Positions 1,489-41,350 of a stretch of 41,350 nt of DNA are shown here, piece after piece. The stretch's first letter is position 1; each line of letters starts with the position of its first letter. The translations under genes were made by a program, and so were the position numbers. The notes below the pieces were generated by a model. The model was not told where the DNA came from. It saw only the letters and a list, made by a program, of their open reading frames with translations, and did not search any database. This DNA is from Spirochaetaceae bacterium (lineage in GTDB: Bacteria > Spirochaetota > Spirochaetia > Treponematales > Breznakiellaceae): NCBI GenBank assembly GCA_031277165.1, contig JAISLT010000013.1:1-41350 (forward strand), read 5' to 3'.

Positions 1489-4023
1489 CTACTCCCAATT
1501 GGCGGTGGTGTCGCCCACGCCGCCCACGGAGGTATCGTTGTAGCTCCATGCGCTGGTGTCCTTCGCGTAAAGATTAACAGTCGCGTCGGCTTCGTCATTA
1601 CGCTTTTTACCGCCCATCAAACAAACCACGTGGCCATTGCCGCTTGTGGCGGTGTTTTCGTTACTGCCATCGGTATGGGTAGTGTCGGTATCGCCGTAAA
1701 TAAGGGCGTTTCCCTTTTTGGTAAACATGCTGTTAGAGGCGGCGGTAACAAACACCCCGCCGCCCCAGGCAGCCTTGTTTCCCTTAATAAGCGCGGTGCC
1801 GCTCGTCTCAAAGGTGCCAGAGTTCACATACACCCCGCCGCCGTCGGATGATGCGGTGTTATGTGCAATGGTTCCCCCGGTCATCTCAAAGGTAGTACCG
1901 GACACAAACACCCCGCCGCCGCTGGTTGATGCGGTGTTATATGCGATGGTTCCTCCAGCCATCTCAAAGGCACTATCGAGCACCACATATACCCCGCCGC
2001 CGCCACCGTTGTTTGATGCGGTGTTATATTCAATGGTTCCCCCGGTCATCTTAAAGGTACTAGTATGGGTCACACACACCCCGCCGCCGTCGAATGATGC
2101 GGTGTTATGTGCAATGGTTCCCCCGGTCATCTCAAAGGAACTACCGGACACAAACACCCCGCCGCCGTCGGTTGATGCGGTGTTATATGCGATGGTTCCT
2201 CCGGTCATCTTAAAGGTACTACCGGACACAAACACCCCGCCGCCGCCCTTGCCGGCATAGCTGTCCCCTGTAGGGGCACCCCCCCTAAGGGTAAGGTTGG
2301 CTCCCAAGCTTACCTTGCTGCCATCCGCAATGTAGAGTACCCGTTTGCTTTTCCCTGCGGCGTTTATAACGCCCGCGTTCGCTCCCGGTCCCTTGCCTTG
2401 CAGGACAATTTTGGGGTAGCCTGTTCCGCTGATGTCTATCATTCCGTTGGAAGTGCCCGTATCGGCGGTGATGGTTCCCGATATGGTGATGGTAATGTAC
2501 GCATCCGGTATCGACTCCAGGCCGGAATTTATGACAAGGTCCAGGACTTGCTGTACCTTTGCGTAGGGAGCGGCGGCGCTGCCGTCCCCGGTTTCGCTTC
2601 CCGGCGGGCTTACATCGCTTCCTGATACGAAAAATTCCGCTCCGTCTGCCAAAGCGGCTCTTGATACTATAATGGTGTAGGTTCTGGTTACGGTTTGGCT
2701 TTCCTTGGTAAGTCCTACCGTAATCTCGATGGTATTGGCGCCGTTGGCAAGATTGATTGTTTTGGCCGTGCCGCTTACCGCCGCGCCGCCCTCAGTTGAA
2801 GGGGCGGTCCTTGTTATGCTCAGGGTTGATCCCGGTACATCCGCGACGCCGCTTGTGGCGGTAATAGACAGCGCGTTGATGTTATTGGCGATTGTTCCCA
2901 GGTTCTTGTTATAGGTAACGGCGGACGACTGGTCGAAGTTCAGAGCCGGGGCGTAGCCCCCCGGACCGGTAAGGCTAAGGCCGGAGAGGCCCACTACCCA
3001 GGCGGGAAAACTGGTGGTCAGCTCCGTTTTGGCATTGTAGGTTACGGTAACGTCTTTGGGTCCCGGGGTGGTAAAATCATAACCCAGGGTATATTGACTT
3101 GGATCCAGCTCGGTCCAACTCGACTCCGCACCAAGGGATATTTTTAAACCCGTGGTATCTATGCCCGTATTGCCCGCCCCCTGTACCTGGTAGACTGTTT
3201 TATTAGGTGACTTATTTACGGCAAGCTGGAGAACGCCGGAACCGGTCCTGTTTACCACCACGGAATAATTTCTGGCCGCCGCCCCGTGGGGGAGTTCCAC
3301 CCGTAAGAGGACGGTACTTATATTGGCGGCGGGGGTTATTGCCCGGTTATCCAGGCGGCCTATTCCCGTCATCCCGTCTATGGTAACGAAGGCCTGCGGA
3401 TTTGCCGCCACGGCGCCAAGGTAAAAGGTATCGGGGGCGTTACTGACGCTGTAATTGGGGGTCTGCGGGTCAAAAGATGGATTTAGGGTAAGCGGGTCCG
3501 AAGGGGTTATTTCTGTCAGGGTGGTATTAAAATCCGCAAGGTAGGCAATCCTCAGGTCCCCCTCATAGAGGATCCGCCCTTCGGCGGCGGTTTTGACTTT
3601 GATGTGGAGGGTTCCCTCGTTTCCGGCGATGTTCCCTTCGGGGATATTTACGGCAAGGCGGTCCGCGCCGGACTGGGTAACGGTAAGGCCGGAAATACCC
3701 GCGCCAAGGGTTTGGGTAAAGGAGCTTTCAACGGTCAGGGCGTAGCCCTGGGGATTGTCTATGGGGATGGAAAAGCCGGTTTCCCCGGCCTTAAGGCAGA
3801 TATAGCCGTCCGTACCCAGGGCCAGGGTGCCGTCCGCGACGGCGGGCAGACCCAGGGTAATGCCGCCGGTTTGTTCTTCAAAAAAGGCCGCGGGATCATG
3901 GGTAAAGGGATCGCAGGAGGCCAGGAACAGCCAGAGAAGGGCGGAAAGAACCCCCCGGCGGCGGGTATTCATAGCACCCCCATGGAATTGGGGGGAGATA
4001 AGCTTCGTCCTTTTTACAGTCAT
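1489..4023 (-). CDS. Surface lipoprotein, cadherin-like domains plus beta-helix repeats (copy 1)
   Basis: An 844-residue predicted lipoprotein. The signal region is MNTRRRGVLSALLWLFLASC, with lipobox LASC. Next comes an N-terminal beta domain, a cadherin-like beta-sandwich (ITPSDPLTLNPSFDPQTPNYSVS to RNYSVVVNR), an Ig-like segment, and a second cadherin-like segment ending in TRTYTIIVSR. The right-handed beta-helix begins near GDGSAAAPYAKVQQVLD and has seven glycine-rich units of the type GGGVFVSGSxFEMTGGTIAYN, similar to chlamydial polymorphic outer membrane protein repeats. It ends in TTANWE. Two starts are possible. ATG 4023 has the better ribosome site (AAAAAGGAG). ATG 3972 gives a shorter, more standard signal peptide. 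It is a paralogue of 7333-9654 and 9744-12263. A role in adhesion or antigenic variation is inferred. Confidence 0.8.
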   Translation of the reverse strand: MTVKRTKLISPQFHGGAMNTRRRGVLSALLWLFLASCDPFTHDPAAFFEEQTGGITLGLPAVADGTLALGTDGYICLKAGETGFSIPIDNPQGYALTVESSFTQTLGAGISGLTVTQSGADRLAVNIPEGNIAGNEGTLHIKVKTAAEGRILYEGDLRIAYLADFNTTLTEITPSDPLTLNPSFDPQTPNYSVSNAPDTFYLGAVAANPQAFVTIDGMTGIGRLDNRAITPAANISTVLLRVELPHGAAARNYSVVVNRTGSGVLQLAVNKSPNKTVYQVQGAGNTGIDTTGLKISLGAESSWTELDPSQYTLGYDFTTPGPKDVTVTYNAKTELTTSFPAWVVGLSGLSLTGPGGYAPALNFDQSSAVTYNKNLGTIANNINALSITATSGVADVPGSTLSITRTAPSTEGGAAVSGTAKTINLANGANTIEITVGLTKESQTVTRTYTIIVSRAALADGAEFFVSGSDVSPPGSETGDGSAAAPYAKVQQVLDLVINSGLESIPDAYITITISGTITADTGTSNGMIDISGTGYPKIVLQGKGPGANAGVINAAGKSKRVLYIADGSKVSLGANLTLRGGAPTGDSYAGKGGGGVFVSGSTFKMTGGTIAYNTASTDGGGVFVSGSSFEMTGGTIAHNTASFDGGGVCVTHTSTFKMTGGTIEYNTASNNGGGGGVYVVLDSAFEMAGGTIAYNTASTSGGGVFVSGTTFEMTGGTIAHNTASSDGGGVYVNSGTFETSGTALIKGNKAAWGGGVFVTAASNSMFTKKGNALIYGDTDTTHTDGSNENTATSGNGHVVCLMGGKKRNDEADATVNLYAKDTSAWSYNDTSVGGVGDTTANWE
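1690..2245 (-). repeat. Beta-helix repeat array of lipoprotein copy 1
   Basis: Seven tandem units of about 75-85 bases. Each encodes GGGV(F/Y)V, a short variable turn, FxMTGGTIxxNTAS. Adjacent units are close enough at DNA level to recombine, and unit number differs between the three paralogues. Confidence 0.75.
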
Positions 4024-4044
4024 CGGACGGCTCCTTTTTAAGCC

Positions 4045-4073
4045 CTTATACACCCCCGGCGGGATTTTGTCAA
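4045..4073 (-). promoter_or_regulatory. Sigma-70 promoter with palindromic spacer, lipoprotein copy 1
   Basis: On the minus strand, TTGACA (4068-4073), a 17-base spacer and TATAAG (4045-4050). The spacer contains CCCGCCGGGGG, a near-palindrome that could be an operator. The same arrangement precedes the other two full-length paralogues and the orphan remnant. Confidence 0.7.
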
Positions 4074-4164
4074 GACGGTATCGATTGACCTGTTGACAGC
4101 GGGTATAATGACCAATAGAAGCCCGCATAACCGGGGCGGATTGTGCAGTTTAAGGGCTTTTTGT

Positions 4165-4354: not shown

Positions 4355-5101
4355 CTATTTTTCTTCCATGGCCTCTATTTGTGGAGGCGTATGTTGACCT
4401 GGCAATAATTTGCCCCCCCATTCATTAACAAAAAAGGTCAAAAAACTGCTACATAATGCCGTTAACAGACAAGACAAGATGAGCATGCTTAAAGTAAATC
4501 TATTTTGTTTCTTTTTGCTTCTTTCTATCTTTTTTATGCGTTTTATCGCCAGGCGAAAAACATTATTTTTTTCAATCTCAACAACACTTTTTGACAAATC
4601 AGCTATCTTTTCAATCGCACTGTTGTACAATTTTACGGCTTCGGACATATCACCTTTACGTTCCTTCTTTTTTGCTTCCAGATACGTTGTTTTTATTTCC
4701 GATTTGCTCTTTCTTAAGAGTTCCAAGCTTATGATAGACTCATTAATACATTCCCGGTAATCGGGGTCTGTCGCAAGATCCTCCAGCAAGTCTGTCTTTT
4801 TATCGGATTCTTTTAACACGCTATTTATTGCAATCTTATAGGAATCTAAAATCGCCCTCTTCAAATGAGAATTTTTCGCCTGTTCAACCTCTTTAACGGC
4901 GTCATCGACATTTGTTATATTACAAAGGCTCCGGCTTATATGATGAAATAATGCATAAATTTCATTTTCAATATGCCGAGGCCGCGAGCCATTGTTTTCG
5001 ATAGTTGCCAATTCAAGAATTTCTTCCAAATCGGAGTGATACTCATTAAAAACCGACAGCAGTACTTCTTGATATTTCTTGTTTGTCAATGTGGAAGACA
5101 T
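4355..5101 (-). CDS. Uncharacterised alpha-helical protein with C-terminal membrane anchor
   Basis: A 248-residue protein I do not recognise. It is almost entirely helical and charged, with Lys/Glu-rich stretches (about residues 145-200, including SKKKQNR) that may form a coiled coil. A single hydrophobic segment follows (about 203-225, FTLSMLILSCLLTALCSSFL). The short tail should lie across the membrane. Residues 40-90 (ENEIYALFHHISRSL, HLKRAILDSYKIA) recall helical bundles seen in HEPN-like or toxin-associated proteins, but no catalytic motif is clear. The start is ATG 5101. It lies six bases after the stop of the 61-residue gene upstream, so the pair is probably one transcript. The segment is more AT-rich than the flanking lipoprotein genes, suggesting separate acquisition. 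Confidence 0.6.
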   Translation of the reverse strand: MSSTLTNKKYQEVLLSVFNEYHSDLEEILELATIENNGSRPRHIENEIYALFHHISRSLCNITNVDDAVKEVEQAKNSHLKRAILDSYKIAINSVLKESDKKTDLLEDLATDPDYRECINESIISLELLRKSKSEIKTTYLEAKKKERKGDMSEAVKLYNSAIEKIADLSKSVVEIEKNNVFRLAIKRIKKIERSKKKQNRFTLSMLILSCLLTALCSSFLTFFVNEWGGKLLPGQHTPPQIEAMEEK

Positions 5102-5107
5102 TTCTTC

Positions 5108-5293
5108 TTACCATTCTTTCAATATTTCCAGATTTTCTTTTTCTTTCTCTCTTCCTGATACATATTCGCTGAAGGTATAACCTCTTAAAAGAAAATCACT
5201 TGTCTGTCCGGCATTGTGAGGCAAAAATTGCTTTAGCTCATCATGCTCCTGTTTATATTTTAGATATTCTTTGGCCTTTTCAGATAAACCCAT
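5108..5293 (-). CDS. Small uncharacterised protein, first gene of a two-gene unit
   Basis: A small charged protein of about 61 residues (MGLSEKAKEYLKYKQEHDE to LEILKEW). The ATG at 5293 is chosen over the one at 5299 because AGGGGAGGAG sits at a better distance. TATACT at 5317-5322 on the minus strand could be a -10 box with a very short leader. The protein is predicted helical, with no signal peptide and no recognised motif. Its tight coupling to the 248-residue membrane-anchored protein downstream suggests the two act together, perhaps as a toxin-antitoxin or small regulatory pair. That is only a guess from gene order and size. Confidence 0.55.
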   Translation of the reverse strand: MGLSEKAKEYLKYKQEHDELKQFLPHNAGQTSDFLLRGYTFSEYVSGREKEKENLEILKEW

Positions 5294-5490
5294 GATCATC
5301 TCTCCTCCCCTTTATAGTATAGGTTAAATCACTATTAACCTTCATCTCCAACTTCCGCCCGCCTTCTTCCTCTCACTGTATGTTACTCGGTTCTTTGCGC
5401 TGTCAGTGTTGCCCAGTCCCATATCTGTTCCTCCCTTTGTCTGGGACAAGAGTACCAGAGTTTCTGTGGCCTATTCAAGGTGTGCCCGTT

Positions 5491-5738: not shown

Positions 5739-5767
5739 TGTATACACCCCCGGCGGGATTTTGTCAA
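5739..5767 (-). promoter_or_regulatory. Orphan copy of the lipoprotein promoter
   Basis: TTGACA (5762-5767), a 17-base spacer with the same CCCGCCGGGGG core, and TATACA (5739-5744) on the minus strand. It reads into the truncated 5' remnant and then toward the two small genes ending at 4355. Confidence 0.6.
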
Positions 5768-5899
5768 GACGGTATCGAACACAGCCAAACCAACAATTCT
5801 CGGACTTTTTGCATGAAAATTTTCTAACCGGAGAATTGCTGCTTATGAAAAATACTGCCGAAACGTGACTCTGCCTCACATCGAATAATTACTTACATT

Positions 5900-7330
5900 T
5901 CAAAAATGAAGAAGAAATTCTTGAAGCTCCTGTAGAGTTTGGGGTCCGGGATACGGCCCTTCGGCACCAGCGGCAAAGTTTATTACTGCAAAAATCCGAA
6001 TCGGTTTTGTTTTACCTGTAATTGATGGCATTTCTTCTGTAATAAAGTATTTATTGATACGCATCCAGGTGTCTTCGGCAATAAGGATATCCGTTCCAAA
6101 AACTTCATTCATGGCCACGATACGGGAGGCAATGTTAACGGGATCACCTATCACCGTATATTCCATACGATCGCCGCTGCCAATCTGCCCGGCCACCACA
6201 ATGCCGGTGTTGATTCCACAACCAATCCGTACCGGCGGGTTTGCCGGATCGCTGGGGCTTCTGTCCTTGTTCATTTCCACCAGTGCCAGGCGCATCATAA
6301 GGGCCGATTTAACACAGTTAAACGCATCCTCCTCCGGGCTTCCGGCGGTGTACACCGTTCCCCAGTGGGCCATTACCGCATCCTCGATAAATTTGTCCAC
6401 CACGCCCCCTGTGGCGGTGACGCATTCAGCCATCTGGGTAAAGTACTCGTTGAGCCACCGGACTATTCTTCTAGCAGCATCTTCGCCGAAGGCCCTGGTA
6501 AAATTTTCGGATTTTTCGGTAAAGCCCCGGATGTCGGAAAAGAAAATCGTCGCATGCTTTGGACGTCCATCAAGATACCCGTCCCCGGAATTTTTCCGGT
6601 TTACCACCACCGAATAATTCCTTGCCGCCGCCCCGTGGCGCAGTTCCACCCGTATCAGTATTTCACTGATGGCGGCGTTGGGAGTTATGGTCCGTTCAAG
6701 ACTGCCCAGTCCCGTGCCGCCGTTTATGGTAATCAGGGCGGCGGGTTTTGCCGCCGTGGCGCTAAGGGTAAAAGACGCGGGGGCCTCGCTGATGCTGTAA
6801 TTGGGTGAATCCGGCGAAAAAACTTCGTTCAGGGTAAGCGGGTCCGAAGGGGTAATTGCGGTCAGGCTGGTGTCAAAATCCGCAAAGTATGCAATTCCCA
6901 AGTCCCCCTCATAGAGGATCCGCCCTTCGGCGGCGGTTTTGATCTTTATGTGGAGGGTTCCTTCGTCTCCCCCGGCGGATCCCGAAGGAATGTCCACGGC
7001 AAGATGGTTCAGGTCCTGCTGGGTAACGGTAAGGCCGGAAATCCCCGTGCCAAGGGTTTGGTTAAAAGAGCTTTCGACGATTAGTTCGTAACCCAGGGGA
7101 TTGTCCAGGGGGATGGAAAAACCGGTTTCCCCGGCCTTAAGACAGATATAGCCGTCCGTGCCCAGGGCCAGGGTGCCGTCCACGACGGCGGGCAGACCCA
7201 AGGTAATGCCGCCGGTTTGTTCTTCAAAAAAGGCCGCGGGATCATGGGTAAAGGGATCGCAGGAGGCCAGGAACAGCCAGAGAAGGGCGGGAAGAACCCC
7301 CCGGCGGCGGGACACTATTTCCGTTTCCAT
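5900..7330 (-). CDS. Chimeric lipoprotein-class III nucleotide cyclase
   Basis: One uninterrupted 476-residue frame joins two unrelated modules. Residues 1-245 match the N-terminal half of the neighbouring lipoproteins (signal GVLPALLWLFLASC with lipid Cys24, then one cadherin-like domain ending RNYSVVVNR). Residues 257-455 form a complete class III adenylate/guanylate cyclase domain. Metal Asp266 is in FFSDIRGF and Asp317 in KFIEDAVMAHWG. Asn399 and Arg403 are in GDPVNIASR. The usual Gly before the second metal Asp is Glu316. The first codons (METEIVS) replace the usual MNTR start. The ATG lies two bases after the stop of 7333-9654, and that gene's terminal GGGAG serves as a ribosome site. 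As a lipoprotein, its cyclase would be outside the cytoplasm with no ATP, so the chimera may be inactive or misrouted. Confidence 0.8.
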   Translation of the reverse strand: METEIVSRRRGVLPALLWLFLASCDPFTHDPAAFFEEQTGGITLGLPAVVDGTLALGTDGYICLKAGETGFSIPLDNPLGYELIVESSFNQTLGTGISGLTVTQQDLNHLAVDIPSGSAGGDEGTLHIKIKTAAEGRILYEGDLGIAYFADFDTSLTAITPSDPLTLNEVFSPDSPNYSISEAPASFTLSATAAKPAALITINGGTGLGSLERTITPNAAISEILIRVELRHGAAARNYSVVVNRKNSGDGYLDGRPKHATIFFSDIRGFTEKSENFTRAFGEDAARRIVRWLNEYFTQMAECVTATGGVVDKFIEDAVMAHWGTVYTAGSPEEDAFNCVKSALMMRLALVEMNKDRSPSDPANPPVRIGCGINTGIVVAGQIGSGDRMEYTVIGDPVNIASRIVAMNEVFGTDILIAEDTWMRINKYFITEEMPSITGKTKPIRIFAVINFAAGAEGPYPGPQTLQELQEFLLHF

Positions 7331-9743: not shown

Positions 9744-12263
9744 TTAGTCCCAGTTGGCGTCTGTCGTGGAATCCAGATTAACGCCCGCTCCGGCGGTGGA
9801 ATTGCGTTTTTTACCTGAGGATATGTTTACCGCGTGGCCGGTGCCGCCGGCGGTGTTTTCCAGGCCCGATGGATCGCCGCTGCCGTAAATAACGCCGCCG
9901 GTTTTGGTCAACCTGCCGCTGCTGCCGCCCACATAGACCCCGCCGCCGTTCTTGGCCGCGGTGTTCTCCCTGATGCTTCCGCCTTCCATGGTAAAGGTTA
10001 AGGTGCTGTGTACTCCGCCTCCATGACCGGATGACGTATTGTTTTGAATAGCAGCGCTGCCGCCCATAGTAAAGGTGCCGCTGCTTACAAAGACCCCGCC
10101 GCCGCCGTAGCCGGCATTACGCGCCATATTATTGCTAATGGTCCCTCCGGTCATCTCAAAGACACTGCCGGCGCTGGTTACATAGACTCCCCCGCCGCTG
10201 GACCCCTCATTGGTATCGACGCTTCCCCCGGTCATGGTAAAAACAGTGCCGCTGCCGCTGATGTTCACTCCGCCCCCGTTGGTGGCTGCTTCATTTTCCT
10301 CAACGGCCCCGCCGCTCAGGGTAAACTTGCCGCCGCTGTTTATGTAGACCCCCCCGCCGGAAGATGACACAGTATTATTGTTAACCCTTCCCCCGGTCAT
10401 CTCAAAGACAGTACCATTGCCGCTGAGGTACACCCCGCCCCCATTGGTGGCTGCTTCATTTTCCTCAACGGCCCCTCCGCCGCTCAGGGTAAACCTGCCC
10501 TTGCCGGTTACATAGACCCCTCCGCCGGAAGATGTCGCAGTATTATGGCTGATCCTTCCCCCGGCCATGGTAAAGACGGCGCCGTCGCCGCTGAGGTACA
10601 CTCCGCCGCCGTTGGCGGCGCTGCCTCCCGTAAGGGTAAGATTATCCCCCAGGCTTACCTTATTTCCTCCGGTGATATAGAGGACCCTTTTGCCCGTCCC
10701 CGAGGCGTCCAGAACACCGGCGTCCGCCCCGGCCCCCCTGCCCCGCAGGATAATTTGGGGATAACCGCTGCCCGAGATGTCCACTATTCCGTTTAAAGTA
10801 CCGGAAGCGCCGGTGATGGTTCCTGCGATGGTAATGGTAAAGGTGTCGGTTGAACTTAAACCGATGGTCTTGATCATACCCAGGGCTTTTTCGACGGTCC
10901 TGTAGGGATATTCCCCGCTGCCGTCTCCGGTGGTATCGCTTCCCGCTGACGATACAAAAAACTCCGAATTTTCCGAGGGATTTTTGCGGACCGCAATGGA
11001 GTAGCTTCTGCTTATACCGCCTCCGCCGGCTCCATCGTCGGCGGCCCCGGCGCTAATGGTGATGGTATTGTCGTACGGCTTCAGGGAAACATCCACGGCC
11101 TCGCCGCTTATGATGGGCTGGGGAGCGCCGCTGTTGACCGTCATGCTCAGGGCCGCCCCGGCCGCCCCCGTAAGGCCGCTTACCGCGGTAACAGTCAATG
11201 GATTGGTAGTAAAAGAAACCGTTCCCAGGTCATAGGTGTTGGTAGAGGGGTTGAATAGCAGGGGCGCAGCGTAGCCCCCCGGACCGGTAAGGGCAAGGCC
11301 GGAAAGGCCCGCCACCCAAACAGAAAAGGCGGCGGTCGATCCCTTGTGGCTTACCACGACGGTTTTTTTCCCCGGAGTGGTCAAGTCGTAGCTTATTGTG
11401 CATTGGGATAATGGCACGGAACTTACGCTGGTTTTGTCTATGACGATCAAACCCGTATCAATTAATCCCTCATTCGGTGCGGACTGTATGGGGTAGATTT
11501 TTTTTGCGGGCTCGGCGGTTATGCCAATGCCAAGAAAGGTCCGCGTGACCTCTATGGTGTACTCCCGAAAGGCCGCTCCGTGGGGAGCTTCCACCCGTAC
11601 CGGTATGGTACTGCTTCCCATGGGGGGCGCGATGGAACTGGTTGAAAAATGGTAACTTGTTTCGCCGTTTATGATGACCGCCGCATCGGGATTTGCCGCG
11701 GTTGCCGTAATGGTAAAGGAAGCGGGGGCATCGCCTATGTGGTACCGTAGAGTATCCCCGTTAAACGAAGACTCCGCAAAGAGGCTAAAGGGCTCTATCC
11801 CAGCCAGGGCGGTATCAAAATCTATGTACGCAATCCCCATGTTCCCCTCATAGAGGATCCGCCCTTCGGCGGCGGTTTTAACCTTTATATGAAGGATCCC
11901 CTCGTTCCCCACGGTGGAACCCGCGGGAATCTGAACCCGCACTGTTCCCGCGTCCTGCTGGGCAACGGTAAGGCCGGTAATTTCTACCCCGCCCCCTGAC
12001 GCGGTTTTGGTAAAGGAGCTTTCAACGGTCAGGGCGTAACCCAGGGGATTGTCTATGGGGATGGAAAAACCGGTTTTTCCGGCCTCCAGGCAGACATAGC
12101 CGTCCGTACCCGGGGCCACGCCGCTTTCCGGGATAACCGCTTGCACGGTGATGGTTCCTGTTTGTTCATCGAAAAAGGCCGCGGGATCCTGGGTAAAGGG
12201 ATCGCACGATGCCAGGACCAGGCAGAGAAGGGCAGGGAGGATCCCTCCGCGGCGAGTATTCAT
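9744..12263 (-). CDS. Surface lipoprotein, cadherin-like domains plus beta-helix repeats (copy 4)
   Basis: An 839-residue, more divergent paralogue. The start is ATG 12263 (MNTRRGGILPALLCLVLASC, lipid Cys20). Domain order follows the others: N-terminal beta domain, cadherin-like sandwich (NGDTLRYHIGDAPAS to FREYTIEVTR), Ig-like segment (PAKKIYPIQSAPNEG), second sandwich (ending ISRSYSIAVRK), and a beta-helix entered at GDGSGEYPYRTVEKALG. It has nine repeats, the most of the family, alternating two subtypes (FxMTGGxI and FTLSGGAVEENEAATN). It ends in TTDANWD. Here the upstream leader frame is not fused to the gene. It stops in an ATGA overlap with this start, so translation may be coupled. Confidence 0.8.
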   Translation of the reverse strand: MNTRRGGILPALLCLVLASCDPFTQDPAAFFDEQTGTITVQAVIPESGVAPGTDGYVCLEAGKTGFSIPIDNPLGYALTVESSFTKTASGGGVEITGLTVAQQDAGTVRVQIPAGSTVGNEGILHIKVKTAAEGRILYEGNMGIAYIDFDTALAGIEPFSLFAESSFNGDTLRYHIGDAPASFTITATAANPDAAVIINGETSYHFSTSSIAPPMGSSTIPVRVEAPHGAAFREYTIEVTRTFLGIGITAEPAKKIYPIQSAPNEGLIDTGLIVIDKTSVSSVPLSQCTISYDLTTPGKKTVVVSHKGSTAAFSVWVAGLSGLALTGPGGYAAPLLFNPSTNTYDLGTVSFTTNPLTVTAVSGLTGAAGAALSMTVNSGAPQPIISGEAVDVSLKPYDNTITISAGAADDGAGGGGISRSYSIAVRKNPSENSEFFVSSAGSDTTGDGSGEYPYRTVEKALGMIKTIGLSSTDTFTITIAGTITGASGTLNGIVDISGSGYPQIILRGRGAGADAGVLDASGTGKRVLYITGGNKVSLGDNLTLTGGSAANGGGVYLSGDGAVFTMAGGRISHNTATSSGGGVYVTGKGRFTLSGGGAVEENEAATNGGGVYLSGNGTVFEMTGGRVNNNTVSSSGGGVYINSGGKFTLSGGAVEENEAATNGGGVNISGSGTVFTMTGGSVDTNEGSSGGGVYVTSAGSVFEMTGGTISNNMARNAGYGGGGVFVSSGTFTMGGSAAIQNNTSSGHGGGVHSTLTFTMEGGSIRENTAAKNGGGVYVGGSSGRLTKTGGVIYGSGDPSGLENTAGGTGHAVNISSGKKRNSTAGAGVNLDSTTDANWD
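9890..10605 (-). repeat. Beta-helix repeat array of lipoprotein copy 4
   Basis: Nine tandem units of about 75-85 bases, each encoding GGGVY plus an FxMxGGxIxxN strand. Two subtypes alternate (EENEAATN units and NNNT units), suggesting past duplication of a two-unit block. Confidence 0.7.
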
Positions 12264-33621: not shown

Positions 33622-34095
33622 ATGGCTAGTTATGTATTGAACGAAGAACAAATGTTCAGCGATATTGCCGACGGCATCGCCATTGTAATTAACAGCGAAA
33701 CCGGCATCTATTACGGCATGAACAACCTGGGAACCTCGGTATTCGAGAACCTGCTCAACGGCGTTTCGACGGAGAATATTCTTGGGGCGCTTAAAAAACT
33801 AAACGGGGCGCCGGCGGATATGGATGAGCGGCTAAGCAACTTTATAGCTCTTTTGCTGGAGAATGGGATACTTATTAAGGGCGGCGGCGGCGATGCGCCT
33901 GCGGCGATCAGTGCGGAAGCGGCGGCGGCCAATAACTTTGCCCTGGAAGTGCGGGAATATAACGACGCCCAGGAACTGCTTCTGGCCGATCCCATCCACG
34001 AAGTGAAGGAAGATACCGGCTGGCAGCCCGATAAATCGGCGCTGGAAACCGACGAGGAAGTGGTCAAGGCAAAGGAAGATAAGGCTAAAGAATAA
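33622..34095 (+). CDS. PqqD-like protein with conserved-looking acidic tail
   Basis: A 157-residue protein. Residues 1-88 fit the PqqD fold (winged-helix peptide-recognition element): VLNEEQMFSDIADGIAIVINSETGIYYGMNNLGTSVFENL and a helical end. PqqD-like proteins usually bind a peptide substrate for a radical SAM or other modifying enzyme. The rest is a flexible Ala-rich linker and an acidic tail containing NDAQELLLADPIHEVKEDTG (residues 114-133), which looks like a defined short motif rather than filler. The start ATG 33622 has GGAGAGGA upstream. The stop shares one base with the next ATG (TAATG). Confidence 0.75.
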   Translation: MASYVLNEEQMFSDIADGIAIVINSETGIYYGMNNLGTSVFENLLNGVSTENILGALKKLNGAPADMDERLSNFIALLLENGILIKGGGGDAPAAISAEAAAANNFALEVREYNDAQELLLADPIHEVKEDTGWQPDKSALETDEEVVKAKEDKAKE

Positions 34096-36128
34096 TGATC
34101 AAAGTTTCGGTAATTATCCCTGTCTACAACACGGCGCCCTATTTGACTCGATGTCTTGACAGCGTTTGTGATCAAACGCTGACGGACATCGAGATACTCT
34201 GTATTAATGACGGCTCCACCGATAGGTCCCTGGAAATTCTGCGGGACTATGAAGGCAGAGACAGCAGGGTAAGGGTCATTAGCTTTGAGCAAAACAAGGG
34301 CGTTTCTGTAGCCCGCAATACCGGCATTGACGCTGCACAGGGCGAGTATATCGGGTTTGTGGACAGTGATGATTATGTGGATCTGGATTTTTATGAAAAA
34401 CTGTATACGGAAGTAAATGGAAATGGGGTGGAAATTGTAAAGGGGCTTGAGCTAAAGATCATTCACCCCGATGGCAGTATTAGTGTTGATAAACATAATG
34501 ACAAAATAAGAAAGAATAAAATACATTTTTGGACAGAATACACAAGTGCAATATTTAACCGTCAATTTATTCAGAGGAACAATATTTACTTCCCCGAAGG
34601 TTTGTTGGTTGGCGAAGATCCGTGTTTTACTCTAAAAGCGTCAATTCTGTCTAAAAGTATTCGGGTTATTGAAAGTGCCCAATATTATTATGTCAGAAGA
34701 GTAAACAGCTTAAACTCGGACATTTGGAATAAAGAAAAGATTCAGTCATACATAAAATATATAGATTATGTTGCCAATTTTGCGGAAAAAGCCGATCTTT
34801 CTCGAGGTGATTATAAAATCTTGTTTAAATGGCTGCTGGAAGATGCACAAAATACATGTAAAAACAAGGCTGGATCGAATAAAAATTATCAAAATTTATT
34901 TGAGCCGCTGTTTAGAAAATTGAAATGCATGGTTGGAATAGATTTGTTGTTTGATGCAACTATATTTCATGGTATTGAATCAAAAACTGATGCGCGAAGT
35001 GGTATTTTTTTTGTCGCATATAACATTCTAAAACAATTAAGTAAGAATAGTCAAATAAATATAACATTATACTTGGAATATTTTAACGCAGTTCTACGGG
35101 AGGCATGTAAAAAAGATGATCTTTTAAAAAAATTTGATATACTTTGTTTAAAGTATAAATCGTCTGTTAAAAATACCGGGTATATAAAAAATCCAAAATT
35201 TTGCCCCGACAGTTTTGATGCGTATATTAATGTTTCATGTTTTTCTTTGTTGTGCGGCGATGATATGGATCGAATTGTTAAATTTTATGTTTTACATGAT
35301 ACAACGCTATTGTTGTTAGATTATGGTGATGAAGGATGGCGTAAAAATCGAAAGGCATTTTGGAATTTTTACGATGATTCATTAACGAAAAATACATATG
35401 GCTTTTGTGTATCTGAATCCGCAAGGCGCGATTTCCTTCGATTTTTCCCTGTACTTGATCCTGCAAAGATGATTGTAACGCCCATAGCGACGGCCCGTAA
35501 ATTCAAACCAAACAGGGATATTGATAAATTAAATGAAATAAAAATGAAGTATAATATGTCCGCCTTGGATACTTATATATTTTCATTTAATTCATATAAC
35601 TTGCGCAAGGGGTTGATTTTTACCGTTGGATGCTATTTGAAGTTTATCGAAAGACATCGGATTAATAACCTGTGTTTTTTATCGGCCGGCGGTGGAGACG
35701 TTTCGTATTACAAAAAAAAAATAGAACAGAATTATGGGGAGCTTTTTCATAGATATAAGAACAGGATATTCATGATTGGGTATATCGATGATGAAGATCT
35801 TGAGATTCTTTACTCTCATGCGCTTTTTACTAGTTATTTAAGTGAGTACGAAGGTTTTGGCATGCCGCCGCTTGAAGCTATGAGCTGCGGTATTCCGGTA
35901 ATAACATCCAACACAAGCAGTTTGCCAGAAGTTGTCGGAGATGCCGCTGTTACAATTGATCCGTATGACGATGAGGCTTGTATTAAAGCTTTTGAGGATT
36001 TATATTTTGATAATATAATACGAAAAGAGTACATTGCAAAAGGCTTTGTGCGAGCGAAAATTTTTACCTGGGAAAAAACAGTAAATGTAATGGCTGACAA
36101 AATGATGAGAGTGTTAGACACGGTGTAA
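34095..36128 (+). CDS. Two-domain glycosyltransferase (GT2 + GT4 fusion)
   Basis: A 677-residue protein. The N-terminal GT-A domain, family 2, spans about residues 1-230: [21 protein letters not shown], and FVDSDDY with the metal-binding DxDD. The C-terminal GT-B domain, family 4, spans about 285-677, with [20 protein letters not shown] and [11 protein letters not shown], the donor-binding EX7E region. It probably adds two sugars in sequence on a lipid carrier in the cytoplasm. The GT4 half is paralogous to the next gene, with near-identical DNA around the donor-site motif. Base composition falls to AT-rich inside this gene, from about 34.4 kb. Confidence 0.88.
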
Positions 36129-36345
36129 TATTCTTTAGCAATTATTGGGATTGATGGAATTGATACTGAAATGCTACAGAAATACCAAGTCAATGCCAAC
36201 TTCGATGTGATCATGGAAAATGTAAAATCTATTGTGGCCTCGAAAAAGAAGTAAACCTATATTGGTTTTGACAAAATTCGCTTTACCCATGGAGGGGCTG
36301 ATGGTGATCCGGAATCGGTACGTTATTATAACCGAGATTTTTTTC
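36129..36345 (+). pseudogene. Decayed radical-SAM-like fragment
   Basis: Two short stretches in different frames recall the C-terminal half of radical SAM/SPASM-type enzymes: [20 protein letters not shown] followed by IVASKKK and a stop, then GFDKIRFTHGGADGDPES after a frame change and a stop. The start, the iron-sulphur cysteines and the middle are missing. It lies between two GT4-containing genes and is probably debris of a former gene of this locus. Inference from motif memory only. Confidence 0.45.
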
Positions 36346-36409
36346 AATTTTGAAAACTACAAATTGGTTTATTGTGGGGAAAACGAGATGGAGTTTTATC
36401 TAAGGAATA

Positions 36410-37627
36410 ATGATGGATAAATTTAGAATGTTGTTTCAGGCTGATATATTACTGAAGGGGGAAATTAACGAAAATGAGCGAACGGGTATTTACTTTGTTA
36501 CGAAAAACTTGCTTGAGCAATTTAAAAAGGACAAAAGATTTGAGATAACATTAATATTCTTTTTTAATCCGATACCCAATGATGTCTTTGTTAGATTTAA
36601 ACAAAATGAGAAATTTAAAAATTTTCCAACAGTTCGTTTTTACCGAAATTTTGAGGTAAAAGGTATATCAAAGACGATTATTAATCCTATTATAAAGAAT
36701 AGTGATTATGATTTCTGTTTTTCAACAATAGGAGGAAGCCTTCCTGATATACAACTACCGTGTTTTGGTATGTTGCATGATGTCATTCCCTTTTTGTTTG
36801 CTGAATATTACGAAAAATCTGCCCGTCAAGAGGAAAATGATTTTTATCAATGTTCCAAAAAACATTTGAATCGCAATACTTATTATTTTTGTGTATCGAA
36901 TAGTTGTAAAAATGATTATTTGAAATTCTTTTCTGAACAATTAAACCCAAATCATATGATTGTAACACCAATCGCAACAATGCGTTCTTTTGTGTTGCAA
37001 CCTGATATGGGTAAATTGTCGAATTTTTTTAAACGGTATGGGGCAACCAAGATAAAAAGCAATCGGTATATCCTTAGCCTTTCAACTATAGAACCAAGAA
37101 AGAATATTCCTTTTACCATTAGGTGTTTTTCGGAATTTATTGATAAACATCACATAACCGATTTGTTTTTTGTTATTGGTGGAGGAAGTTGGGATTTTAT
37201 ATCCGTAACTATAAAGCAGTCTCTTGATTATGACATAGAAAAAGCATCGGCTACTTGTCGGGACAAAATAATTCGGCTCGGTTATGTTGCAGACGAAGAT
37301 GTAGAAATGCTTTATAGCCATGCCTTAATCTTTACTTTTATTTCAGAATACGAAGGCTTTGGCATGCCTCCACTTGAAGCAATGAGCTGCGGAACTCCGG
37401 TAATAACATCTAATACGAGTAGCTTGCCCGAAGTTGTCGGCGATGCCGCTATTATTATTGATCCGCATGATGCGGAAGCTTGTATTAATGCTTTTGAAAA
37501 TTTATATTTCAATGCCGACTTGCGTGAGGAATACAGTAAGAAAGGCATTAGTCGTGCTAAAATGTTCAGTTGGGAGAAGACTGCCAAGGTAATAACTGAA
37601 AAAATGTTGCAGGTGTATACCAAATAA
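36410..37627 (+). CDS. Family 4 glycosyltransferase
   Basis: A 405-residue single-domain GT-B enzyme that closely parallels the GT4 half of the preceding fusion. It has [45 protein letters not shown] (hinge) and [20 protein letters not shown] with [14 protein letters not shown]. It transfers a sugar from a nucleotide donor, and the acceptor is unknown. Two ATGs are adjacent (36410 and 36413), with TAAGGA upstream. It stands after the decayed fragment and probably arose by tandem duplication of the fusion gene's second half. Confidence 0.88.
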
Positions 37628-37645
37628 ATAACGAGGGTGTTTAAT

Positions 37646-38539
37646 ATGCTAACGAAAAATGTTATGAACAGGTATCACGATTGGCTTGAAGATCATAAAT
37701 TAATCGGGGGGGGGGGTGATGAATTGTTTCTCCGTTTATTTAGTATTCAAATTGATACTTGTTACAAACCCTTTGTAGTTGAATACAATACAACAACGGA
37801 GAAATTAGAAAGAATTTTTGCACATATAGAAGGGGAGTGGGAAAAATATGGCAAAGACGAGACGTATTGGTCTGTTTTGACAGATCCAAATTTCTTAAAA
37901 AAGGAACTAAATGATGTTGCTTTGGAAAATTTTTACAATTCCGGAAAAAATGACTTAAATCGAATTGAAATAACTTTACAAAGATGCGGGGAATGGGACA
38001 CTTTGCCAAAAGATTCTTGTTTGGAATATGGATGTGGTGTGGGACGGGTTACGTTTCAATTATCTTCCATCTTTAACTCTGTTTCTGGTATTGATATTTC
38101 GCCGGGACATATTGCGTTAGCCGGAAACCGTCTAAAAGATCTTGGTATAAAGAATGTATCTTTACGCACGATACATAAATTGAAAGATTTGCAATCCTTT
38201 GATAAATATAATTTTATTTATAGCGTAATTGTATTACAGCACAATCCGCCGCCGATAATAGCCTGTATTCTAAGGTTCTTTTTTTCGCATCTTAAAACAA
38301 ATGGGATAGTCATGTTTCAGATACCTGTTAATATAAAGGGCTATAAATTTACGGTCGACGAATACCTTGCCAAAATCCATGCGGTAAAAGGCATGGAGAT
38401 GCATATGTTGCCACAGAATGAAATCTTAAGAATTGCCAGAGAAAATGATTGTTGTTTACTTGAAGTTGCTAATGATGCCTGCATAGGCAGCTATTCTACA
38501 TCCATATCTCAAACTTTTCTTTTCAAGAAAATACTTTGA
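37646..38539 (+). CDS. Class I SAM-dependent methyltransferase with G11 tract
   Basis: A 297-residue enzyme. The nucleotide-binding loop is LEYGCGVGR (residues 126-134), followed by [13 protein letters not shown] and [16 protein letters not shown], typical Rossmann methyltransferase motifs. In this locus it probably methylates a sugar and may cap or decorate the glycan. Codons 21-24 (GGGG) are encoded by a run of 11 G. Loss or gain of one base would shift the frame near the start and switch the enzyme off. In this sequence the frame is on. The start ATG 37646 has GAGGG upstream; GTG 37637 is also possible. Its stop overlaps the next gene. Confidence 0.8.
37706..37716 (+). repeat. Intragenic G11 homopolymer
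   Basis: Eleven consecutive G inside the methyltransferase gene at codons 21-24. It is of a length known to be slippage-prone in bacterial phase-variable genes. Confidence 0.95.
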
Positions 38540-39333
38540 ATAATATAGAAAATACATCGCCAAAGTTTTCCATCATCACAGTTTGCCTTAACGATCCGAA
38601 TTTAGAACAAACCTGCGAAAGCATAGTTAATCAGTCTTTTCAGGATTTTGAATGGATTGTAATTGACGGTGGTTCGGATCGGCAAACGCAGGATATATTT
38701 GAAAAATATAAATATCGCATGAACTATTTTGTTTCTGAAAAAGACAACGGTATATATGATGCAATGAACAAGGGCATTATACAGGCCCATGGTGAATGGT
38801 TTAATTTTATGAACGCAGGGGACAGATTTTATGACAGCGATATATTGAAATTTGTTGTAGGAAAGATTAACGAAGTTAAAATGGATGATAAACCAGATAT
38901 ATTTTATGGTGATGATATTAGTAAAAAAGAAAATGGAATTTTTGTCAGTGATTTACCCTGTTGCATTGATAAATATTTTATGTATAAGGCAACACTTAGA
39001 CATCAGGCCTCATTTATTGTTGCATCATCTTTCAAAAGAATAGGAATATATGATAGTTCATTAAGGGTTTGTTCTGACTATAAATGGTTTTTATGTGCAC
39101 TTAAGCATGGCCTTGAATTCAGAAAAATTACGGGTTGTCCCTTGGCAATTATGGATGGCAACGGAATTGGATCACAGATGACGCATATTCATCTGGAGGA
39201 ACGCAAGTGTGTCCAAAGAGATTTTTTTTCATCGGATGAATTGCCGGCTTTTGCAGTAAGATTAAGCAAGGAAAAGCGTTTAATTGCTATTAATTTTATT
39301 GCCAGTAAGCGGGCGGAAAATAAAAATCACTAG
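38536..39333 (+). CDS. Family 2 glycosyltransferase
   Basis: A 265-residue GT-A enzyme with FSIITVCLND, IVIDGGSDRQTQDIFEKY, EKDNGIYDAMNKG and the MNAGDRF motif in place of the usual DxD. This pattern is typical of WcaE/WcaA-like family 2 enzymes in exopolysaccharide loci. The start is TTG 38536, overlapping the methyltransferase stop as TTGA; no other good start is present before the first strand. It continues the compact, coupled arrangement of the locus. Confidence 0.82.
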   Translation: MNNIENTSPKFSIITVCLNDPNLEQTCESIVNQSFQDFEWIVIDGGSDRQTQDIFEKYKYRMNYFVSEKDNGIYDAMNKGIIQAHGEWFNFMNAGDRFYDSDILKFVVGKINEVKMDDKPDIFYGDDISKKENGIFVSDLPCCIDKYFMYKATLRHQASFIVASSFKRIGIYDSSLRVCSDYKWFLCALKHGLEFRKITGCPLAIMDGNGIGSQMTHIHLEERKCVQRDFFSSDELPAFAVRLSKEKRLIAINFIASKRAENKNH

Positions 39334-40018
39334 AAATAAACTTGTTTCCATCTTAATTCCTGCGTATAACGCTGAGAAATATATTGCCGAAGCAATAGAT
39401 TCTGTGCTTTCGCAGGATTATCAAAATAAAGAGATAATCGTGATAAATGACGGCAGCACCGATTGCACTTTGAAAATTCTGGAACAATACAAAGGGGTAA
39501 TCAAAGTCATTTCAAAAAAGAATGAAGGTGTAGCCGCCGCTCGTAATACAGGATTGGCGGCGGCGAACGGTGATTATATAGCCTGGCTTGATGCGGATGA
39601 CTATTATTGCGCCGGAAAAATTCCGGCGCAGGTGAAGTATTTGGACGAACACCCTGATGCGAAAATAGTTTTTACAAAATATGAAAATTTTTTTGAAGGC
39701 GAACCAAGCGCGGATGTTCTGATTAGAATTAAACTGGAAAAAAATAACCGCTATTGTCAGCCCACGTCTATGTTTAGACGGGAATTAACCGCCAAAGTAG
39801 GCAATCATGATATTTCTTATACGATTGGAGAAGATATTGACTGGATTTTTCGAGCGAAGATTATGTATAATGTTAATCTTGACCATTACATTGATATTCC
39901 TTATTATCGCCGAAGATTTCATACAAATAATTCAATACTCAATATACAATTGGATAAAAACTATAACAACCGTATTATGATGAAATATCTTAAACAAAAA
40001 AGAGAAATTGGGAAATGA
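39284..40018 (+). CDS. Family 2 glycosyltransferase
   Basis: A 244-residue GT-A enzyme: VSILIPAYNAEKYIAEAIDSV, VINDGSTD, EGVAAARNTGLAAANGDYIAW and LDADDY for metal and donor binding. The start is uncertain. The frame opens with TTG 39284 inside the previous gene, a second TTG lies at 39299, and the conserved fold begins about residue 20. The true start may be a non-standard codon near 39320, after GGCGGAAAA. Downstream, its stop overlaps the next gene as ATGA. Acceptor and sugar unknown. Confidence 0.8.
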   Translation: MLLILLPVSGRKIKITRNKLVSILIPAYNAEKYIAEAIDSVLSQDYQNKEIIVINDGSTDCTLKILEQYKGVIKVISKKNEGVAAARNTGLAAANGDYIAWLDADDYYCAGKIPAQVKYLDEHPDAKIVFTKYENFFEGEPSADVLIRIKLEKNNRYCQPTSMFRRELTAKVGNHDISYTIGEDIDWIFRAKIMYNVNLDHYIDIPYYRRRFHTNNSILNIQLDKNYNNRIMMKYLKQKREIGK

Positions 40019-40668
40019 TCAGTGTTATTATTCCGGTATGGAATGGGGAAAACTATCTTGCAGAAGCTGTAAATAGCGTTAATCGGCAAAATTCAGATAC
40101 TGAAATCATTGTTGTGGATGATGGATCAACTGATAATACAGCAAAATTGGCCAAGTCCTTTGGCTGCCGAATTGTTTCGATACCACACAAGGGTTCATCC
40201 GTGGCGCGTAATGTAGGGTTAACAGTTGCAAATGGTGATACTATTATGTTTCTTGATCATGATGATGTTTTAACCGAAGGGTCGCTTGATCGTTTGGATA
40301 AATCATTGATCAGTGGCATTGATTTTGTTTCTGCAAAAGTAAGAGATTTCTTATCACCCGAGTTATCAAACAGCGAGAAATATAAATTGGTTCCAAGGAA
40401 GAAGGCATATGGCGGGTTATTAACCGGTGCGTATCTTTTTAGACAATCTGTTTTTGTAACGGTTGGCGGTTTTAATGAAAGACTTATGACTGGAGAATGT
40501 ATCGATTTATTGTTTCGCTGTTCCGATCTAAAATTGAAGGAATTGAGATTGGATTTTATTTCGGCGCATCGACGTTTACACCTTTTTAATAAAGGCCGCA
40601 TTATGCGGACCCAGGAAAATAAAGATTATTCGGCGATTTTAAGAGAAAAAATAAAAAAAGGGGAGTAA
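40015..40668 (+). CDS. Family 2 glycosyltransferase
   Basis: A 217-residue, rather short GT-A enzyme with MISVIIPVWNGENYLAEAVN, VVDDGSTDNTA, GSSVARNVGL and FLDHDDV (a DHDD variant of the DxD motif). TGAYLFRQSVFVTVGGFNE is the usual acceptor-side helix. The C-terminus (RRLHLFNKGRIMRTQ) resembles small glycosyltransferases found in peptide- or glycan-modification loci. The ATG 40015 start overlaps the preceding stop by four bases. The next gene, a radical SAM protein, starts five bases after its stop. Confidence 0.82.
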   Translation: MISVIIPVWNGENYLAEAVNSVNRQNSDTEIIVVDDGSTDNTAKLAKSFGCRIVSIPHKGSSVARNVGLTVANGDTIMFLDHDDVLTEGSLDRLDKSLISGIDFVSAKVRDFLSPELSNSEKYKLVPRKKAYGGLLTGAYLFRQSVFVTVGGFNERLMTGECIDLLFRCSDLKLKELRLDFISAHRRLHLFNKGRIMRTQENKDYSAILREKIKKGE

Positions 40669-40672
40669 ATGT

Positions 40673-41350
40673 ATGACTAAACAGAAATGGGGCTGGTTTA
40701 AGAAGAATAATATCAATGATATAATCCGACATTTTGAATGGTTTAATATGAGGGATATGTTTAATTTTCGTGTATTTGATATGGTTGGACCTAAAATGTT
40801 TAAGTTATATCTAATCATGCGTTTTTTTGTAACCCGTAAGCCATCAATATCTAAACTTGATATTATGAATACTACAAGATGTACTTTGAATTGCCGAGAT
40901 TGTTGTGCTTTTATACCGCATTATAGACCGGAAAATCATGTTAAGCCGATGGGTTTTGAAAATTTTAAAATGAATTTAGATGGATTATTGGCATCAGTAG
41001 ATCTGATTTATATACTTCAATTTGTTGGTGGTGAACCGTTATTGGACAAGGAATTGGATAAAGAGTTGGAATATGCTGTCTCAAAGCATCAGATTCGTCA
41101 TATATTCATAACTACTAACAGCACAATTATGCCGTCACCTTTATTGATAAAATCCTTGAAAAATAAAAAATGTGCGGTACAGTTGTCTAATTATTCTATG
41201 ATTAAAACATCGGTTCCTTTGTTCTATAATCAATGGTTAACTCTTTTGAAAAATAATGAAATACGATATATCACATATAATGAATTTTATTTTTATACTG
41301 TATGGTCTATTCGTGACTGCAATGTGAACCATGATACCCCCCCCCCCCCC
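40673..41350 (+). CDS. Radical SAM protein, 3' end beyond window
   Basis: The first 226 codons of a gene open to the window edge. The iron-sulphur cluster motif CTLNCRDC (Cys70, Cys74, Cys77) follows DIMNTTR, the usual strand before the cluster, and VGGEPLLD (119-126) is the GGE motif binding S-adenosylmethionine. So it is a radical SAM enzyme, active on a glycan, sugar nucleotide or peptide. The ATG 40673 start has GGGGAG upstream; ATG 40669 closes after two codons. The end of the visible frame is a run of C encoding Pro, so the real C-terminus cannot be read. Any auxiliary cluster domain is out of view. Confidence 0.8.
   Translation, partial: MTKQKWGWFKKNNINDIIRHFEWFNMRDMFNFRVFDMVGPKMFKLYLIMRFFVTRKPSISKLDIMNTTRCTLNCRDCCAFIPHYRPENHVKPMGFENFKMNLDGLLASVDLIYILQFVGGEPLLDKELDKELEYAVSKHQIRHIFITTNSTIMPSPLLIKSLKNKKCAVQLSNYSMIKTSVPLFYNQWLTLLKNNEIRYITYNEFYFYTVWSIRDCNVNHDTPPPP
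41337..41350 (+). repeat. C14 (or longer) homopolymer at window edge
   Basis: Fourteen C in a row run to the last base. They lie in the open frame of the radical SAM gene. True length is unknown. The window may stop here because an assembly could not pass the tract. Confidence 0.9.

Follow-up and report, generated by a model that had tools for sequence, protein, structure and literature searches.

An in-frame fusion of a lipoprotein N-terminus and a class III cyclase catalytic domain in a spirochaetal lipoprotein array

How does an open reading frame come to begin as a lipoprotein and end as a class III nucleotide cyclase, and can such a product have a function? The question is raised by P0001, a chimeric frame in a stretch of 41 350 nucleotides which is referred to here, in its entirety, as the window. 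This stretch corresponds to contig C104 in a draft metagenome-assembled spirochaete genome (2.48 Mb, 123 contigs, 82% complete). Its relevant features are compiled in Table 1.

Table 1. Features of the window around P0001.
Feature	Coordinates	Strand	Basis
Receptor cyclase N-terminus, cut by contig end	3..260	minus	39–63% identity to three full-length receptor cyclases of the genome at their N-termini
lipA, intact lipoprotein of the array, most closely related to the lipoprotein half	1489..4128	minus	
Remnant of a decayed lipoprotein leader and signal peptide, downstream of P0001	5610..5780	minus	Alignment to lipA and lipB starts
Chimeric ORF P0001, 476 aa	5900..7330	minus	Open frame without internal stop; domain matches
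Class III cyclase catalytic domain; HAMP, transmembrane and sensor parts and usual C-terminal tail absent	5903..6568	minus	Pfam PF00211; receptor-cyclase alignment
E316 codon, replacing invariant Gly before metal Asp D317	6383..6385	minus	Alignment
Junction zone, residues ~246–255, lipoprotein to cyclase homology	6566..6595	minus	DNA matches; alignments
Lipoprotein part: signal peptide, LASC lipobox, Cadherin-like domain	6596..7330	minus	Identity to lipA/lipB/lipC; omega 0.40
Candidate internal start GTG241, AAGGA 8 nt upstream	6608..6623	minus	11/535 internal NTG codons (2%, window) score as well
lipB, intact array lipoprotein directly upstream of P0001	7333..9654	minus	
lipC, intact array lipoprotein	9744..12263	minus	

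The fusion and its junction

P0001 is a real in-frame fusion of a lipoprotein N-terminus and the catalytic domain of a class III cyclase. From about residue 7 to 246 its identity is 77% to lipA, 72% to lipB and 58% to lipC, LASC lipobox included, and it has a signal peptide with lipobox (RRRGVLPALLWLFLASC) and a hydrophobic core, as judged by pattern. A Cadherin-like Pfam match at residues 165–246 is weak and below the cut-off (E 5.6e-4). The initial annotation had taken the first 245 residues for the N-terminus of a neighbouring lipoprotein. The lipoprotein homology stands, but lipA-like residues run slightly past 245 and, judged by these identities, this half is a paralogue of the array neighbours and a copy of none. 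Relatives of this N-terminus are rare, being found in four of 118 genomes at E 1e-8, the source genome included. Residues 259–426 match Guanylate_cyc (PF00211) with E 2.7e-16 and 60.1 bits (cut-off 21.9).

The DNA match to lipA stops at 6595, and that to the best cyclase paralogue of the genome (on contig C99) starts at 6563. By eye, lipA-like residues extend as far as ~253, with the cyclase pattern G-x-PKHAT following from 254–255. The cut falls between whole domains, on the lipoprotein side and the cyclase side alike. The longest sequence shared around this 5′ junction measures 22 nt among the own-genome contigs examined and 26 nt among loci of other species; around the 3′ end of P0001 the values are 15 and 13 nt. 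With so little shared sequence at the junction, an assembler had little to switch on. About 120 nt past the P0001 stop codon, array sequence resumes in the form of a decayed leader and signal peptide. The short shared stretches and this return of array sequence disfavour misassembly. A chimera of contigs might be suspected in a draft metagenome-assembled genome as fragmented and incomplete as this one, with a repetitive array close by, but it would require two joins 0.7 kb apart, with array sequence flanking the cyclase part on either side. Furthermore, the reading frame is preserved, and the cyclase half matches no other sequence at more than 73% identity. We consider an artefact most improbable, and an assembly error at the junction, which the initial annotation had named as a possible refutation of the fusion, is unlikely in view of the short shared stretches and the array-specific sequence downstream.

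The array itself shows signs of turnover. A 34-nt exact repeat links the leader of the decayed remnant (5741–5774) to that of lipA (4047–4080) and holds the sequence TTGACA-17-TATA. The true start of the lipoproteins may be located upstream of MNTRRR, since the leader runs on in frame into them after AAGGAG. Elsewhere in the window, an AT-rich stretch inside the array (4355–5300) contains two small genes of no clear family (weak MIT-like match), and a gene of the PD-(D/E)XK/YhgA-like (Rpn) family with a short in-frame C-terminal repeat (282–1229) lies between lipA and the cyclase at the left edge. At the far end (34000–41350), the G+C content falls to 34–37% over glycosyltransferase-like and methyltransferase-like genes, which may constitute an acquired polysaccharide cluster.

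State, constraint and location of the cyclase domain

By alignment, all six catalytic residues are kept in P0001: D266 and D317, the metal aspartates, K313 and T392 in the substrate positions, and N399 and R403, the Asn/Arg pair, with roles as established for class III cyclases. The description of residues 257–455 as a full cyclase domain in the initial annotation therefore holds for the metal Asp and Asn/Arg pairs, but not for the whole: the glycine before the second metal Asp, present in every other aligned copy, is E316 in P0001, the sequence VKGK has lost V-K, and there is no C-terminal tail. No HAMP match accompanies the domain, while the C99 cyclase and a receptor cyclase from another genome (G020:C24) have HAMP. 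Altogether, P0001 departs at seven of 82 near-invariant sites (G316E, L400I, E405V, L407M, K409E, and V and K deleted). The G020:C24 cyclase, whose branch is just as long, departs at five, all mildly, and most other copies at none or one. It is the kind of changes in P0001 that is striking, not their number. The hairpin carrying E316 is poorly predicted by AlphaFold in the chimera and in the C99 control alike. The protein, if made, is probably enzymatically idle.

To each half we applied a branch model of codon evolution written for the analysis. For the lipoprotein half, omega is equal to that of its paralogues, and neutrality is rejected (2 delta lnL 7.3). The cyclase half, on a branch that is saturated, has an omega of 0.06, and neutrality is again rejected (2 delta lnL ~43). 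Both halves have been constrained for most of their history; the fusion itself is neither dated nor covered by the codon models. As the tested branches include time before the fusion, the constraint is not attributable to it.

The ATG of P0001 is located 2 nt after the lipB stop codon, which is just preceded by GGAG. The leader that precedes lipA, with its AAGGAG ribosome site, is absent before P0001, and a promoter scan gave no excess above chance. With the array leader missing, P0001 probably depends on lipB, and low expression would be expected. Past the signal peptide there is no transmembrane helix (no 19-residue window with a hydrophobicity above 1.6), so that, once exported, the full-length product would lie entirely outside the cytosol. 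The intact signal peptide would direct it to the side of the membrane with little ATP, as an idle or dead enzyme. The objection that lipoprotein export would place the cyclase where ATP is lacking, raised in the initial annotation, thus retains its force: signal peptide and lipobox pattern are in place and no later transmembrane helix follows.

Two functional readings may be weighed here. In the first, translation starts at GTG241 and yields a separate soluble cytosolic cyclase domain of 236 aa, the lipoprotein part being only a 5′ region or part of a separate exported product. AAGGA is present before this codon and missing from lipA at the same place via two synonymous differences, few internal NTG codons score equally (11 of 535), and such a start would account for the kept catalytic residues and the purifying selection. 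However, the match is of five bases in a single gene and was noticed post hoc, which makes GTG241 a candidate initiation site; moreover, E316 and the V-K deletion would persist in the shorter product. We regard this reading as unlikely. In the second, P0001 is a selected, lipid-anchored and exported cyclase, or a cyclase-like binding protein, working outside the cytosol. The intact lipobox, the clean domain boundaries and the constraint on both halves would fit, and exported alarmone synthetases offer a precedent of second-messenger enzymes able to act outside cells (PMC12691689). Against this stand the occurrence in a single genome, the loss of the invariant glycine and of the leader, and the fact that a conserved partner or secretion system was not seen beside P0001. 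Such a role is quite unlikely, and the stricter proposal drawn by analogy, that a lipid-anchored exported cyclase is expressed, selected, and makes or binds cyclic nucleotide outside the cytosol, is very doubtful.

Relatives, gene neighbourhood and origin

A P0001-type fusion was found nowhere else in 195 family genomes and 80 further genome-contig loci; among those searched, the fusion is seen in one genome only. Cyclase-domain matches to P0001 at E 1e-60 or better occur in 54 of 118 genomes, and matches to the G020:C24 domain at E 1e-85 or better in 65 of 195. The initial annotation had regarded many separate copies without a second fusion as an argument against P0001. Across the 195 genomes and 80 loci, the domain is common as a HAMP receptor cyclase, and its restriction to one genome in fused form speaks for a recombination by-product. 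In the cyclases examined from the relatives, the domain is preceded by the FGRFTN region and HAMP, except where a contig end, stop or frameshift intervenes; for frames that were read only in part, length was the sole criterion. Several candidates for further fusions were discarded: four loci with long tblastn matches (L100, L122, L157 and L166) contain ordinary receptor cyclases, short cyclase frames in G162, G192 and G056 run into contig ends, the frame in G164 starts at HAMP, and that in G166 has an in-frame stop inside the sensor part. The G166 gene (L196, G166:C14, 558–2489), a receptor cyclase with this stop, indicates that cyclase genes decay in the group. No relative was found in the viral collection. 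The relatives of P0001 are treponemes, mostly metagenome bins, which, to judge by isolate names, appear to come from termite guts. The source spirochaete probably lives in a termite gut as well.

The gene neighbourhood of these cyclases is conserved. A FecR-like gene lies within 400 nt downstream of 88 of 91 cyclase frames but is absent directly downstream of P0001. Among the three loci without it, the window is the one with a fully readable flank or a fused cyclase. In about 12 of the 91 cyclase loci, a lipoprotein or pectin-lyase-like repeat gene is located directly upstream on the same strand, a count in which a few loci represent the same gene twice and some of the matches are due to glycine-rich repeats. 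The gaps between lipoprotein and cyclase genes in these loci range from overlap to 0.65 kb, some being shorter than 30 nt. In G020:C24 it is a relative of P0001's own lipoprotein family that lies 0.65 kb upstream of the receptor cyclase. The order lipoprotein or GGG-repeat gene, HAMP receptor cyclase, FecR-like gene was noted in L028, L093, L107, L114, L147, L150, L152, L153, L157, L164, L170 and L180. Such a cluster, found repeatedly, suggests a pathway in which surface sensing leads to a cyclic nucleotide. In the literature searched, we found no account of a cyclase–FecR cluster.

We favour, with moderate confidence, the view that P0001 is a recombination by-product of a rearranging lipoprotein array, in which a deletion joined a lipoprotein gene to a downstream receptor cyclase, without established function. 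A deletion, or other illegitimate recombination, would have joined the first ~246 lipoprotein codons to those encoding the catalytic domain of a same-strand receptor cyclase farther downstream. The C-terminal part of the lipoprotein and the sensor, transmembrane and HAMP segments of the cyclase would have been lost in the joining, and the cyclase 3′ end and the FecR-like partner in the same event or another. Deletion would be the simplest origin, as lipoprotein-like genes recur directly upstream of such cyclases. The decayed remnant and the exact leader repeat beside P0001 show array turnover, and the radical changes at near-invariant sites (G316E, E405V, K409E and the V-K deletion) also favour a by-product, as do the missing FecR-like gene and array leader and the lack of a transmembrane helix past the signal peptide. 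On the other side, the frame is open for 476 codons, the cuts lie between whole domains, the six catalytic residues are kept and neutrality is rejected on both halves; in addition, the G020:C24 cyclase has nearly as many near-invariant departures as P0001, although milder ones.

A further point against this view is that no donor cyclase was found in the source genome, at its 82% completeness. P0001 is not a recent copy of a genome paralogue, as the best matches are only 70% (C99, cyclase) and 77% (lipA, lipoprotein) identical. The idea of a recent recombination accident, put forward in the initial annotation, is thus to be divided. Recombination agrees with the occurrence in one genome, the other relatives being receptor cyclases and lipoprotein genes recurring upstream; a recent date gains no support from these identities, and the suggested search for an intact donor in the genome yielded none closer than C99. 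The gene at the left edge of the window is a cyclase relative, as had been surmised (Table 1), but the contig ends before its catalytic domain. We rejected it as donor, since its catalytic part is off the contig and the end of contig C84, where its other half probably lies, carries the other subtype, only 59% identical. Contig C84 breaks off within the catalytic half of a receptor cyclase (L027, G000:C84 end, 2391–3119); this piece and the left-edge fragment (3–260) may be parts of a single gene that lacks ~0.9 kb between the two contigs.

In the tree, the end branch of the P0001 cyclase has a length of 0.91 (median 0.19). When P0001 and G020:C24 were held together, the likelihood was 10.9 units above that of the quick tree (p-AU 0.74), both being long branches; a clade of P0001 with C99 is not rejected either (p-AU 0.36). 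This uncertain position, the lack of a close donor in the genome and the probably different subtype of the adjacent left-edge cyclase would fit a cyclase fragment from outside the locus, by horizontal transfer or copying from elsewhere, with no local deletion. Such an origin is nevertheless improbable, as lipoprotein–cyclase pairs are recurrent neighbours and the best held-together tree groups the fragment with the lipoprotein-adjacent G020 cyclase, long branches notwithstanding. If only a by-product of recombination, P0001 shows how receptor-cyclase domains shift within treponeme gene clusters; were it instead exported and active as a cyclase, the view of class III cyclases as confined to the cytosol would be called into question.

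Comparison with known systems

No lipoprotein–cyclase fusion was found in the literature searched. Closest to the cyclase half are the receptor cyclases of termite-gut treponemes with the architecture sensor–transmembrane–HAMP–Guanylate_cyc (for example G000:C99 in L002/L026, relatives in L092–L171), which share with P0001 the catalytic domain at up to 73% identity, the catalytic residues and an EKSENF-type insertion. In comparison with these, P0001 is without sensor, transmembrane segment, HAMP, C-terminal tail and FecR-like partner, and Gly316 is changed to Glu. The array lipoproteins lipA, lipB and lipC resemble P0001 in signal peptide, lipobox and the first 245 residues (58–77% identity), but have a GGG-rich repeat C-terminus in the place taken by the cyclase domain in P0001, which also lacks the array leader.

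Among proteins of known structure, P0001 is closest by sequence to CyaB of Pseudomonas aeruginosa (3r5g; E 3.8e-28) and by fold to Cya2 (2w01), CyaC (1wc0) and CyaB (Foldseek E ~1e-9). These have the class III cyclase fold and motifs in common with P0001 but, in contrast to it, retain Gly in front of the second metal Asp and act within the cytosol. With the exported alarmone synthetases (PMC12691689), P0001 shares the concept only, that of a second-messenger enzyme with an export signal; those are RelA–SpoT homologues, another enzyme family with ~600 members, whose activity has been shown.
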